The notes under the pieces were generated by a model, which ran no database searches, was not told the DNA's origin, and saw only the letters and a list, made by a program, of their open reading frames with translations. From NCBI GenBank assembly GCA_022824265.1, contig JAJEAG010000048.1:1-53312 (forward strand): a DNA stretch of 53,312 nucleotides. The letters run 5' to 3'. Shown in pieces: positions 30,762 through 36,342 of this stretch (position 1 is its first letter; the number at the start of each line of letters is the position of its first letter). This DNA is from Candidatus Poribacteria bacterium (GTDB taxonomy: Bacteria > Poribacteria > WGA-4E > WGA-3G). The translations under genes were made by a program, and so were the position numbers.

Positions 30762-32693
30762 TCAAATCCAACTATACACTGCAGACCGCAAAATCAAACT
30801 TAACAAGGGCCAAAAACATCCCATCAACGCTTCACCTAAAACCAACCCAATGAAAAACGGTATTGCCCGACGATATGCTCTGATACCACCATTTCGTAAT
30901 ATAATCCATTTCGCAACCATAGCAATAAGCAAAGGGAACCAGATAATATCAGTAGTTCCAGGGGCAACCCCAATCACATATCCCGCAGGATGTAGCGGAC
31001 ACCAAACAAAACGCGAACGAAGGAACATTATACCTAAATTTGCCACAAACGTTAACCCAAGTACAGTCGATGCTAAGAAGTCCATCGGTTTCGGATTAAC
31101 CAACCACGATGACAGGAAATTATACGTGTCAGCACCACCAGCATGAATCTGTTCAGAACCTGCAGCAACTCCTTCACGATATATCGCATAAGGGTAAAGA
31201 ATTAGGCTGGACAAGATACCTACAAGACTTGCTATGACTAACACCGTAAACATTGTCCTATTTCGGACACCTGTACGTTCCGCAAGTTTAAACGCCTCCA
31301 ACTGATCAGGCATCGGATGTGTTCGGAATGACGCATAACTCGCACCACTAAGCCAATTCATCAACGAAAGCATCGTTAGATTCCCTGCACGTAACCGTCG
31401 CGTACCGAGAAGTGAAATCATCATATATTGCGGTGTCAAATAGCCGATAGCATGAATCGGAGGACCAAGTTCTGCACGCATACGCGTCAGACCAACAACT
31501 ATCATTAGATAGATACCGATAAATACCGTAAATGCCCATAACGACATACCACCCCGAATACATAAAACTGCCAACAGAAGCAACGATAATCCCAATGTAA
31601 TTACAGTACTACGATACGAGATCGCCTCTGTATCTATACCTCTTCCTTTCTTTCCAACCACCTGAGAAAATATCGCTGCGAAATGCTTTCTCCCATTCCA
31701 ACACGCAATAGCAAGCAGTGCAAGCAACGCACCCGCTCCCTGTTCACCCAAAAACGGGTAACCCGGCACCTTAGATACACCTGTCGCACTTCCAAAGATA
31801 AATTGCACCTTCTTCATCAAGTAAAAGAACGCACATGAAAACGCTAAATCCAAAGGTAAAATAAACGAAAAACCTATCAGATACGGATGAAACCGTAACG
31901 GGGTATTCCCCATTGCATTCCACGGTTTCTGCGTGAAATAGATATTTAGGTTATACTTTTTTACAGGTATTTCAGGAAGCATAGGATAGAAATATTGTAG
32001 ACCGTTAAGCAGATTGATCCCAAACGCAATACCAAAACCGATCCAGAGAAGACGGTTTCTAAAAATACGACGACTTGAGGTTATCTCAAGTGGAATCTGA
32101 ATGATTGGATACGCGAGTTTCTCGTTCTCTATCCACTGCTTGCGAATCAGAGAGGTAAGACACAGGAAAATCAACATCAACAGAAAGATAACTGCAGACC
32201 ACGAAAGAATAGGCACAATCCAATACTGCACATAACCTTCAGTAAAAAAGTTGACATTACCTTCATAGAAATCGTTGACTGTCTTCGGATGTTTGACAAC
32301 AAGCCACTCAGGCAAATGGTGGAATAATAGTGCCTCCCAATCATTCTCAGCAGTCGCAAAACGAAACGCATAAGGAATCAATCCCATCAGACGTGGAATA
32401 CAATCATGTCCAGAAAACGCACTACCCACAGCAAGCATACTATAAACTACAATCAGATCCCGCTGCGAGAGTGCAGCACTTGGAGCAATACTTCGCAGCC
32501 ACAGATTCAGAACTGTAATCACGAAAATACCAAACATGACATTAACTGACATAGCAACAGTTGTCAGATGTGCTGTATGCCATATCATCTCAACATAAGC
32601 AATCCAATAACTATTACCAATAATTAGGACAGTACCAATCAATACTGCTCGCTTAGCGATTGGAGACGAAGACTGAAAATTAGTTTGACGCAT
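30762..32693 (-). CDS. Large multi-pass membrane protein of the DUF6785/DUF6784 type
   Basis: The 643-residue protein has about 14 membrane helices. The sequence (SQRDLIVVYSMLAVGSAFSG, ENEKLAYPIIQIPLE, and MRAELGPPIHAIGY) matches a family common in Poribacteria and related environmental phyla and distantly like oligopeptide transporters. No substrate is known. It stands alone, with repeat-like spacer on its 3' side. Confidence 0.75.
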   Translation of the reverse strand: MRQTNFQSSSPIAKRAVLIGTVLIIGNSYWIAYVEMIWHTAHLTTVAMSVNVMFGIFVITVLNLWLRSIAPSAALSQRDLIVVYSMLAVGSAFSGHDCIPRLMGLIPYAFRFATAENDWEALLFHHLPEWLVVKHPKTVNDFYEGNVNFFTEGYVQYWIVPILSWSAVIFLLMLIFLCLTSLIRKQWIENEKLAYPIIQIPLEITSSRRIFRNRLLWIGFGIAFGINLLNGLQYFYPMLPEIPVKKYNLNIYFTQKPWNAMGNTPLRFHPYLIGFSFILPLDLAFSCAFFYLMKKVQFIFGSATGVSKVPGYPFLGEQGAGALLALLAIACWNGRKHFAAIFSQVVGKKGRGIDTEAISYRSTVITLGLSLLLLAVLCIRGGMSLWAFTVFIGIYLMIVVGLTRMRAELGPPIHAIGYLTPQYMMISLLGTRRLRAGNLTMLSLMNWLSGASYASFRTHPMPDQLEAFKLAERTGVRNRTMFTVLVIASLVGILSSLILYPYAIYREGVAAGSEQIHAGGADTYNFLSSWLVNPKPMDFLASTVLGLTFVANLGIMFLRSRFVWCPLHPAGYVIGVAPGTTDIIWFPLLIAMVAKWIILRNGGIRAYRRAIPFFIGLVLGEALMGCFWPLLSLILRSAVYSWI

Positions 32694-32926
32694 TCTTGTA
32701 GGAAGGTAAAATTATATCGTAGATGCGGATTCTGTGCTAAAAAATTGAAGGTAATATATCAAAAAGAATGGATATATTTTCTACAGTATGTTATACTAAA
32801 TAATCAAAACTCTGTCAAGATGAAATACAGAACGATCCTAATGATTTGCTACCTGAAATAGAATACAGAACAGCATCAAAAGAACTTTTATTTCATATTT
32901 ATCAACCTCTATTAGGAGTTAACATA

Positions 32927-34048
32927 ATGCAACTTTCTTTTGAAAAAGAAGAACTATTATATACACTTCAAATGGTACAAGGTATAGCAGGTGGACCTAA
33001 TACCTTGCCAATTCTCTCAAATGTCCTCATTCGCGCACAAGACGGGAACATTGAATGCGCCGCTACAGATTTGGAAGTCGGTATCAGAATTAAGGTTATG
33101 GGAACAATTACGGAAGAAGGATCTATCACAGTCTCAGCAAAAAAATTAGCTGATATCGTCCGAGAATTGCCTGATAAACCAATTGAACTGGTAACAACCG
33201 CAAATAACCGAGTTGAACTCACTTGCGGCGACGGTGTATACAAGATTATTGGGATGTCCGATGAAGATTTTCCAGAGATACCACCTGCAAGTTCTGAAGG
33301 TGTAGTTATAGGTGGAGAGACATTATGCGCTGTTATTCACAAAACACAATTTGCTGCATCAAACGACGAAGTCCGATACATCTTAAATGGACTTTATTTT
33401 AACCTATCGGAAGAAAAAACTGAAGTCGTTGCTACCGATGGAACAAGACAGCTCGCGCTTACATATTGCCCTTCTCTAAAAACATCCAATGAGGTGGATG
33501 GGTTTATAGTACCTCTAAAAGCTATCAGAGAGGTTTCACGAATCTTCGCTGATTCACCTGAAGTGAGAATCTCACACCTCAAGAATCAACTCCTGTTTTC
33601 AGATGACAATACCGCTCTAACCACGCGACTGGTAGAAGGTGAATATCCTCCATATCAGAAACTATTCCGAGACTCTTCTGATGGACGCACTGTTGTCTCA
33701 AAAGATGCTATCTTACGAACAGTAAGACGGGTCGCTTTACTATCTGATCCAAAGAACTTCTTGATCTGTTTAGAAATTGATGCGGAACAGATAAAGGTCT
33801 CAGCAAAAACACCAGAACTCGGGGAGGCACATGAAACGTTACCTGTTCAATCCAGCACAGGAACCGTACGGATTGGTCTGAATGCTAACGTACTAACTGA
33901 AGTATTAGCACATATTGAAACTGAATCCCTCATATTCGAATTCACGGGAGAGTTCATACCACTCATCGTTAAACCAACCGGAGATGATGAACATACTTGC
34001 TTTATCATGCCGATGCGTTTAGAACCCGCATCACCATTAGAATCATAA
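32927..34048 (+). CDS. dnaN: DNA polymerase III beta subunit (sliding clamp), paralogue 1
   Basis: This 373-residue beta clamp would encircle DNA and tether polymerases. The three-domain sequence is complete, from MQLSFEKEEL to the C-terminal MPMRL pocket element. The start is ATG 32927, with TAGGAG eight bases upstream; the frame beyond it is not clamp-like. Two features are unusual: the TDG-RLA pocket loop has one extra residue (T170-D-G-T-R-Q-L-A), and eight residues follow MPMRL, which normally ends the protein. It is followed 127 bp later by a second clamp gene, about 65% identical by eye. Confidence 0.93.
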   Translation: MQLSFEKEELLYTLQMVQGIAGGPNTLPILSNVLIRAQDGNIECAATDLEVGIRIKVMGTITEEGSITVSAKKLADIVRELPDKPIELVTTANNRVELTCGDGVYKIIGMSDEDFPEIPPASSEGVVIGGETLCAVIHKTQFAASNDEVRYILNGLYFNLSEEKTEVVATDGTRQLALTYCPSLKTSNEVDGFIVPLKAIREVSRIFADSPEVRISHLKNQLLFSDDNTALTTRLVEGEYPPYQKLFRDSSDGRTVVSKDAILRTVRRVALLSDPKNFLICLEIDAEQIKVSAKTPELGEAHETLPVQSSTGTVRIGLNANVLTEVLAHIETESLIFEFTGEFIPLIVKPTGDDEHTCFIMPMRLEPASPLES

Positions 34049-34175
34049 CAGGTTGATCCTTGTACCGTCCTAATAGTACATATTGTTCTTGTGCCCTCTG
34101 AATTTATCGGTAAACCTGGATTATACATTGCAGATGGATATGATCTATATTGATGCTAATGAATAGGAAATCTCT

Positions 34176-35285
34176 ATGCAACTATCTTTTAAAAAAGAAG
34201 AACTCTTTGATAACTTACAAATAGTACAGAATGTAGCAGGTGGACGTAATACCTTGCCGATTCTGGCAAATATACTCATCCGAGCACAAGATGGAGTCAT
34301 TGAATGTGCCGCTACAGATTTGGAAGTCGCCATAAAGGTAAAAGTTGAAGGTACTATCACGGAAGAGGGAGAAATTACTGTCTCTGCCAAGAAATTTGTT
34401 GATATTGTCCGAGAATTGCCTGATAAGGAGATAGAATTTGCTACAACCGCAAACGATAGGGTTGAATTAACTTGTGGAGATGGAATATACAAGATCGTCG
34501 GACTCTCAAGTGAAGATTTCCCGCAAATCCCTTCTGCTAACGGAGGGGGTCTAACTATTGATGGGGAGACGTTAAACGCAGTTATACGGAAAACCGAATT
34601 CGCTGCATCTACAGAGGAAGTACAATTTTTACTGAACGGACTATTTATCAAATTACTTGAAGATAAAACAGAAGTAGTCGCAACCGATAGAAATTATCTT
34701 GCTTTAGCCAATTGTCCGCCTCTCAATATAACTGAAGACATCACTGAATTTATATTACCCCTAAAAGCTGTCAAGGAAATACAACGCACATTCGCTGAGT
34801 CTTCTTCGGTCAGAATGACACCCCTCAATAACCAACTGCTTTTTTCTGATGGGAACGCTACCCTAACAACACGGTTGGTTGAAGGAAATTACCCAGATTA
34901 TCATGTCATTATTCCTGATTCTTCTGACGGACGAACAGTTGTAGCAAAAGATGCAATCCTACGAGCAGCACGACGTGTTTCTTTGCTGACCAATCCAAAA
35001 AATAATGCAATCTGTTTAGAGGTAGATACCGAACAGATCCAATTGTCAGCAAAAACACCTGAACTCGGTGAAGCACATGAAACTATACAAGTAGAGTCGG
35101 GAAATGGAAGTGTCCGCATAGGTTTAGATGCTCGGATGTTTATTGAGGTGTTATCACACATTGAAACCGAATTACTCGTTTTAGAATTTACCGATGAAAC
35201 ATCACCATTCATCGTTAAACCAGAGGGTCATGATGACCATCTTTGCATCATCTCACCAATGCGGTTAGACACCGTTCACCAGTAA
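34176..35285 (+). CDS. dnaN: DNA polymerase III beta subunit (sliding clamp), paralogue 2
   Basis: The 369-residue product is a full-length clamp that aligns end to end with paralogue 1. The client-binding pocket differs more: the TDGxRLA loop reads T170-D-R-N-Y-L-A, so the conserved Gly is Arg, and the C-terminal MPMRL is SPMRL plus five extra residues. In E. coli the matching Gly174 and Met362 line the pocket where polymerases and MutS bind. Copy 2 may therefore bind a different partner set. No dnaA, recF or gyrB lies nearby. Confidence 0.92.
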   Translation: MQLSFKKEELFDNLQIVQNVAGGRNTLPILANILIRAQDGVIECAATDLEVAIKVKVEGTITEEGEITVSAKKFVDIVRELPDKEIEFATTANDRVELTCGDGIYKIVGLSSEDFPQIPSANGGGLTIDGETLNAVIRKTEFAASTEEVQFLLNGLFIKLLEDKTEVVATDRNYLALANCPPLNITEDITEFILPLKAVKEIQRTFAESSSVRMTPLNNQLLFSDGNATLTTRLVEGNYPDYHVIIPDSSDGRTVVAKDAILRAARRVSLLTNPKNNAICLEVDTEQIQLSAKTPELGEAHETIQVESGNGSVRIGLDARMFIEVLSHIETELLVLEFTDETSPFIVKPEGHDDHLCIISPMRLDTVHQ

Positions 35286-35439: not shown

Positions 35440-36342
35440 CTAACCCACCTCTGTACCAGACATCTGTTCCAACGCCAACAACAATGCTTGCGTCCCCAAA
35501 CGTCCATGTCCTTGTGCTTGAACTGCAGTATAAAGTTGATGCACCAATGCAAGACCGGGCAGACTCAGATTCATTTTTCTTGCCTCATCCAAGGCAATGC
35601 TCATATCCTTAATAAAGTGCTCCACAAAGAAACCTGGATCAAAGTCGCGTTTGAGAACACGAGGAGCTAAATTATCCAACGACCAACATGCCGCTGCTCC
35701 ACCACTGATAGAGGATAACATCGTCTCCAGATCCAAACCCGCCTTGTGTCCATAAATCAAACCTTCACAAACACCAATCATTGTTCCTGAGATAGTAATC
35801 TGGTTGCACATTTTGGTATGTTGACCAGCACCTGCACCACCTTGATGGACAATGTTTTTCCCCATCGCAGAAAACAAGGGCATAATAGCTTCTACTGCTG
35901 CATCGTCACCACCAACCATAATGGACAGCCGTGCTTCACGTGCACCAACATCACCACCTGAAACCGGCGCATCCACAGAAGATACATTCTGTTCATTCGC
36001 TGCTGTGTAAATTTCCTGTGCAAGGGACGGTTCAGTTGTCGTCATATCAACGATAATACTACCCGCTTTTGCACCTTTCAAGATTCCGTTATCTCCAAGA
36101 TATACCTCACGCACATCAGGTGGGAATCCAACGATGGTAAACACCACATCCGATGCAGCAGCCACCTCACTTGGCGAATCTACCCACGTCGCACCATCAT
36201 CAAGAAGCGGTTGTGCTTTAGATGCTGTGCGGTTAAAGACAGTCATGCCATATCCAAGATCCATAAGGTGTTGGCACATCCACCTACCCATTACACCAGT
36301 TCCAATCCATCCAAGTTTCGTTGTTTTAGGGTCAATATTCAT
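35440..36342 (-). CDS. Beta-hydroxyacid dehydrogenase (3-hydroxyisobutyrate dehydrogenase family)
   Basis: This 300-residue NAD(P)-dependent enzyme has the Rossmann start [13 protein letters not shown], the substrate motif [22 protein letters not shown] (cut here for description), and the catalytic-lysine helix [11 protein letters not shown]. Family members oxidise 3-hydroxyisobutyrate, tartronate semialdehyde or similar acids. It is a single gene, and the substrate cannot be chosen. Confidence 0.9.

Follow-up and report, generated by a model that had tools for sequence, protein, structure and literature searches.

To our knowledge, most bacteria have one sliding clamp, and nearly all bacteria route every clamp client through a single kind of socket, which makes competition for the clamp central to both replication and repair. 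The window analysed here, a stretch of 53,312 nucleotides on contig 42 of a Candidatus Poribacteria genome (4.45 Mb, 97% complete), carries two such genes in tandem. Two ring-competent clamps with different sockets would show whether gene duplication can relieve the competition among clients, and the Poribacteria pair would permit a direct test of bacterial hetero-clamps.

Sequence, pocket and interface of the two clamps

Copy 1 (T1) lies at 32927..34048 on the plus strand and encodes 373 residues from the ATG at 32927; the ORF listing contains a longer, TTG-started form at 32846. Copy 2 (T2) lies at 34176..35285 on the same strand and encodes 369 residues. Both match TIGR00663 over its entire length (1-367 of 367), with scores of 270.9 bits for copy 1 and 267.5 bits for copy 2 against a cut-off of 137.65, and all three Pfam clamp domains are present in each. 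The AlphaFold models of copy 1 and copy 2 have pLDDT values of 90.6 and 90.4, respectively. The copy 1 model resembles solved clamps, with 7ybd as its best PDB match in Foldseek (TM 0.92), and the copy 2 model has the same order of elements. The two proteins are 66.4% identical across 366 residues, and 121 of 168 residues are identical within the first 170 E. coli positions. The sequence-only reading, which had described two complete beta-clamp genes side by side and estimated their identity by eye at about 65% (123 of the first 170 residues), is thus confirmed by the counts. The 127-bp gap between the copies (34049..34175) contains no terminator-like site on the plus strand, so that the two genes may be co-transcribed. 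A viral origin of the pair was rejected, as IMG/VR yields no relative and the tree nests both copies among the clamps of the family, and neither copy matched a known defence system in PADLOC.

The client pocket is where the copies differ most. Its residues, and those of the dimer interface, follow published work on the E. coli beta clamp and were mapped by alignment. The E. coli reference loop reads TDGHRLA. In copy 1 the loop is one residue longer and reads TDG-T-RQLA (33434..33457, plus strand), with one inserted residue and Arg176 replaced by Gln, and this form is common to the orthologs in the four nearest species. Copy 1 retains Arg152, Tyr153 and Gly174, as well as the canonical C-terminal MPMRL (34007..34021, plus strand), which is followed by EPASPLES. 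Copy 2 has Gln-Phe at E. coli positions Arg152-Tyr153 in pocket subsite 2 (34623..34628, plus strand), the loop TDRNYLA (34683..34703, plus strand; Gly174Arg, Asn at 175 and Arg176Tyr), and SPMRL at the C-terminus (35253..35267, plus strand; Met362Ser), followed by DTVHQ. The six copy 2 states Gln152, Phe153, Arg174, Asn175, Tyr176 and Ser362 are identical across five species. The canonical client pocket is mostly retained in copy 1 and altered at Arg152, Tyr153, Gly174, Arg176 and Met362 in copy 2. As the copy 1 pocket is itself not fully canonical, owing to the insertion and Arg176Gln, the split between the copies is one of degree.

These alignments bear out the loop insertion of copy 1 and the Gly to Arg and Met to Ser changes of copy 2 that had been read from the letters, while the replacements at Arg152 and Tyr153 in copy 2 and at Arg176 in both copies (Gln in copy 1, Tyr in copy 2) had been overlooked. 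The same reading had pointed to residues beyond the usual terminal Leu. They are present in both copies but are uninformative, since nearly all clamps examined in the phylum have them, and they were discarded as a special feature of the pair.

The earlier claim that the client pockets differ is supported by the distribution of the changes, which are fixed per copy across species and statistically concentrated in the pocket. Over the five species, copy 1 and copy 2 show fixed differences at 8 of 20 pocket positions, compared with 24 of 346 in the rest of the protein (p = 8.5e-5). Conserved ancestral residues have been replaced in copy 2 at 6 of 17 pocket sites but at 0 of 26 interface sites. 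When only sites at least 90% conserved in single or housekeeping clamps are considered, the departures are 6/17 in the pocket versus 6/125 (permutation p = 5e-5). Variable pocket residues number 1 of 20 in the single clamps of the order and 0 of 20 in the housekeeping copy of the sister genus. The ratio of pocket entropy to that of the remaining protein is correspondingly 0.06 and 0.00 in these two groups, and it reaches 0.86 in the copy 1 types and 1.71 in the copy 2/3 types. Had the pocket changes been common in single clamps of the phylum, the pair would have lost its distinction; the single clamps of the order contain none of them. The head-to-tail dimer interface, judged by residue conservation, is retained in both copies, and because its residues are near-identical in the two proteins, homodimers and heterodimers are both compatible with it.

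Locus, distribution and age of the pair

The pair is flanked on the left by a divergent gene for a DUF6785/DUF6784 membrane protein (30762..32693, minus strand), which is the conserved left neighbour of the family clamp locus, and on the right by a convergent 3-hydroxyisobutyrate dehydrogenase-like gene (35440..36342, minus strand), conserved in most members. The usual, though not universal, neighbourhood of dnaN is dnaA-dnaN-recF-gyrB, and the outgroups within the order have this classic arrangement at the clamp. In family f1, to which the window's genome belongs, the clamp lies outside it, between the two flanking genes described above. Since the tandem pair occupies this housekeeping locus by synteny, it arose by duplication of the housekeeping clamp gene. 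In the sister genus g2, one gene (type A) occupies the housekeeping locus, and a second clamp (type B) is encoded at another site and is itself tandem in some species.

In a phylum set of 71 genomes, each at least 85% complete, at least two clamp matches were found in 47 of the 51 genomes of the family, and between three and five are present in each of the single-contig genomes G010, G024, G077, G078 and G079. Genomes outside the family seldom show a second match above the cut-off; four from other taxa, taken from the locus comparison, have one each. Within the genus of the window's genome, two loci (L034 in G001 and L036 in G003) contain three tandem clamps with a different pocket loop in each, and the middle clamp ends in MSLHR or MSLHK in place of MPMRL. 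No tandem pair was found in the drafts G009 and G008 of the same genus, where the clamp matches are limited to the sigma-clamp or to a divergent clamp, probably because of missing contigs. Two copy-2-type genes occur in one species (G017), and genera g3 and g4 are without the copy 2 type. A 143,886-bp contig of G019 (L060, G019:C1) contains a very divergent clamp together with a second DnaE at G019:C1:87316, and could represent a plasmid or phage that encodes a replisome of its own.

Copy 1 genes have dN/dS values of 0.05-0.12 and copy 2 genes values of 0.05-0.095, and dS between the copies within one genome is 1.3-2.4. Together they indicate an old duplication with purifying selection on both copies and make recent whole-gene conversion unlikely. 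Copy 1 and copy 2 orthologs form matching five-species clades, and the tandem arrangement is conserved across the genus. The deep order in the genus is less clear, as a single clade of all copy 1 types is neither supported nor rejected (p-AU 0.237). Decay of one copy and duplication during assembly had both been named as outcomes that would undo the finding. Pseudogene decay is ruled out by the strong purifying selection on both genes, and a duplication created by assembly is at odds with the synonymous divergence and with the presence of the pair in the one-contig genome G010.

Sigma factors fused to clamp, FtsZ and DnaE parts

A third clamp of the same genome is found on contig 76 (L003:850-2607, G000:C76), where an ECF sigma factor is fused to a whole beta clamp in a protein of 585 residues. 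Such sigma-clamp ORFs, about 575-620 residues long, are present in about two thirds of the genomes of the family; most fall in one clade, and those of G024 and G032 form a second, separate clade. In the main clade, departures from conserved residues amount to 0.51 and 0.58 in the interface versus 0.27 elsewhere in the clamp domain, so that these sigma-clamps are probably not ring-forming. For the same reason, a function as a T4-like ring tether is disfavoured. In one genome (G016; L057:4606-6370) the ORF is in two overlapping frames, which reflects a frameshift or an assembly error. Of 21 sigma-clamp loci examined, 17 have ABC permeases of the MacB/FtsX or ABC-2 type nearby, and several g2 genomes have a sigma-FtsZ gene after the sigma-clamp. 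No such neighbourhood was seen around the remaining ECF fusions of the genome that contains the window, within the shorter flanks examined for them.

Replication and division proteins are joined to sigma factors in other combinations too. An ORF of 1365 residues (L302 and L139:604-4698, G000:C38) combines an ECF sigma factor with a complete FtsZ-like protein and the N-terminal ~800 residues of DnaE, which comprise the palm and finger; the three parts occur in this order in 13 genomes, that of the window among them. In the g3 genomes G019 and G022, a clamp is fused to a complete FtsZ-like protein (L059:4929-7010 and L076:1741-3633). In G012 (L075:4511-8145) and G008 (L074:3514-7517), a divergent clamp gene has two ECF genes and two genes for zf-HC2 anti-sigma-like proteins around it, and the anti-sigma-like protein encoded just upstream of the clamp contains QLTMF or QLIMF, which resembles a clamp-binding motif. 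The window's genome has ~26 close ECF paralogs, most of them joined to WD40, sortilin-like, peptidase, lectin or other domains. Tandem arrays of ECF sigma factors with long WD40- or sortilin-like C-terminal parts occur at L124, L130 and L133 (G000:C15, C47 and C81), and in many of these proteins the sigma part is followed by a hydrophobic segment that resembles a transmembrane helix. ECF fusion is thus a habit of the lineage, and this is the main caution against over-reading any single fusion.

A broader and unlikely proposal treats the clamp of this Poribacteria family as a multi-member family. The tandem genes would form asymmetric heterodimer rings, and the ECF-fused clamps would be non-ring sensors beside ABC exporters, in parallel with the sigma-FtsZ and sigma-FtsZ-DnaE fusions. 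The sigma factors would then carry copies of essential replication and division proteins as built-in decoys, which signal that the genuine proteins are under attack or what state they are in. The sigma-clamp and sigma-FtsZ-DnaE proteins are conserved across species and couple transcription control to replication and division proteins, and they may be of greater importance than the tandem pair.

Clients, rival explanations and known systems

The clients expected to use the pocket have not followed the change in copy 2. The replicative DnaE has the motif GQMNLF or GQMSLF, which we take to be the standard QxxLF clamp motif, in nearly all family and order genomes examined. In the loader subunit delta, a segment of the form V-E-x-Y-P-x-M or near it occurs in the family and in the order outgroups; it was assigned by inspection, MAFFT having left the E. 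coli motif unaligned there. The window's genome has one full-length DnaE and one delta gene. With the DnaE motif unchanged and the delta segment nearly so while the copy 2 pocket changed, copy 1 is suggested as the replication clamp and copy 2 as the one that serves something else.

The firm part of this picture is a conserved pair of clamps that are apparently ring-competent and have different sockets. On sequence evidence, an old tandem duplication has probably left copy 1 as the replicative clamp and turned copy 2 into a clamp that is ring-competent and client-switched. With its dimer interface retained, copy 2 would be able to form a ring around DNA. Its rebuilt pocket would have a low affinity for the QxxLF motif of DnaE and for the delta loader, and another partner would be its client in their place. 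Copy 2 is perhaps a heterodimer partner of copy 1, in which case it could reach DNA when delta opens the copy 1 half, and the resulting ring would present two different sockets. The sequence-only reading had raised both heterodimeric clamps and a clamp specialised for repair; of these, heterodimers agree with the near-identical interfaces, and a role in repair is conjectural.

Among the other explanations, an inhibitor-proof spare holds up best but is unlikely. It proposes that copy 2 and the other pocket-altered paralogs withstand natural products, toxins or phage proteins that would otherwise block the clamp pocket. The pocket is the site of griselimycin and mycoplanecin, for which a second dnaN serves as a self-resistance gene (PMC10817943), a phage protein binds clamps (Gp168 complex, PDB 7evp), a toxin targets the clamp (PMC12795458), and the pocket has diversified repeatedly in the family. 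However, residues required by the clients have changed as well, with the client motifs unchanged, and the key pocket positions of copy 2 are identical across five species rather than fast-evolving. Moreover, an unaltered housekeeping copy is retained in the sister genus, and no biosynthetic cluster of a clamp inhibitor was seen beside the pair, whose neighbours are lipid A, aminotransferase, dehydrogenase and NAD-pathway-like genes and membrane proteins.

Redundancy or dosage, with a backup copy whose pocket drifts under relaxed constraint, is improbable. In its favour, extra clamps are frequent in the family, and in the sister genus the second clamp type shows a somewhat higher rate of evolution than the housekeeping copy. 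In contrast, copy 2 has a dN/dS roughly as low as that of copy 1, and the changes are gathered in the pocket instead of being spread over the protein, with the interface residues fixed.

It is more improbable still that copy 2 belongs to a clamp-linked sigma circuit, in which clamps act as protein sensors that bind sigma or anti-sigma factors via the pocket. The sigma-clamp fusions of the lineage are in its favour, as is the divergent clamp of G008 and G012 between ECF and zf-HC2 anti-sigma-like genes, one product of which carries QLIMF/QLTMF. On the other hand, the tandem pair has neither a sigma nor an anti-sigma gene next to it, the sigma-clamps fall in a clade apart from copy 2 and their ring interface is decayed, and no such clamp-binding motif was seen in the portion of the window genome's zf-HC2 anti-sigma genes and their surroundings that was scanned. 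An assembly or annotation artefact, for which no support was found, can be dismissed almost with certainty, because the two proteins diverge by 34%, their genes are close to saturation at synonymous sites, and the arrangement recurs across many genomes, including a single-contig one.

Searches of openly licensed papers yielded no description of adjacent clamp genes whose divergence is concentrated in the pocket, or of sigma-clamp or sigma-FtsZ-DnaE proteins. The client-switched reading of copy 2 can nevertheless be set beside several known systems. Bacillus anthracis has two clamp genes, dnaN-1 and dnaN-2, with partly divided function and about 40% similarity (PMC3290774). The Poribacteria likewise have two clamp genes in one bacterium, whereas theirs are adjacent and 66% identical, with an unchanged interface and divergence concentrated in the pocket. 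The griR and mypR genes encode a second DnaN for self-resistance in producers of griselimycin and mycoplanecin (PMC10817943), and their drug binds the same pocket that differs in the Poribacteria pair. In contrast, griR and mypR lie in biosynthetic clusters near transposases, while the Poribacteria pair is at the housekeeping clamp locus, where no such cluster was seen. The heterotrimeric PCNA of Sulfolobus is a demonstrated mixed ring (PMC9690074) and offers a parallel for distinct subunits, possibly with their own clients per ring position; it is an archaeal trimer, whereas the Poribacteria clamps are of the bacterial dimer type and their heteromer is a prediction.

The sigma fusions have their own counterparts. 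In the sections of PMC8999054 covered here, the ECF41, ECF42 and ECF57 groups are sigma factors with a fused sensing domain, and the Poribacteria fusions similarly join a sigma domain to a putative sensing domain. Clamp, FtsZ or DnaE extensions on ECF sigma factors were found neither in those sections nor in literature searches. In phage T4, the sliding clamp gp45 is linked with the sigma-like gp55 (PMC7892883), and the third clamp of the window's genome shows a comparable link between clamp and sigma factor. The T4 proteins are separate and the ring is on DNA, whereas the sigma-clamp of Poribacteria is one polypeptide in which the ring-interface residues are lost.
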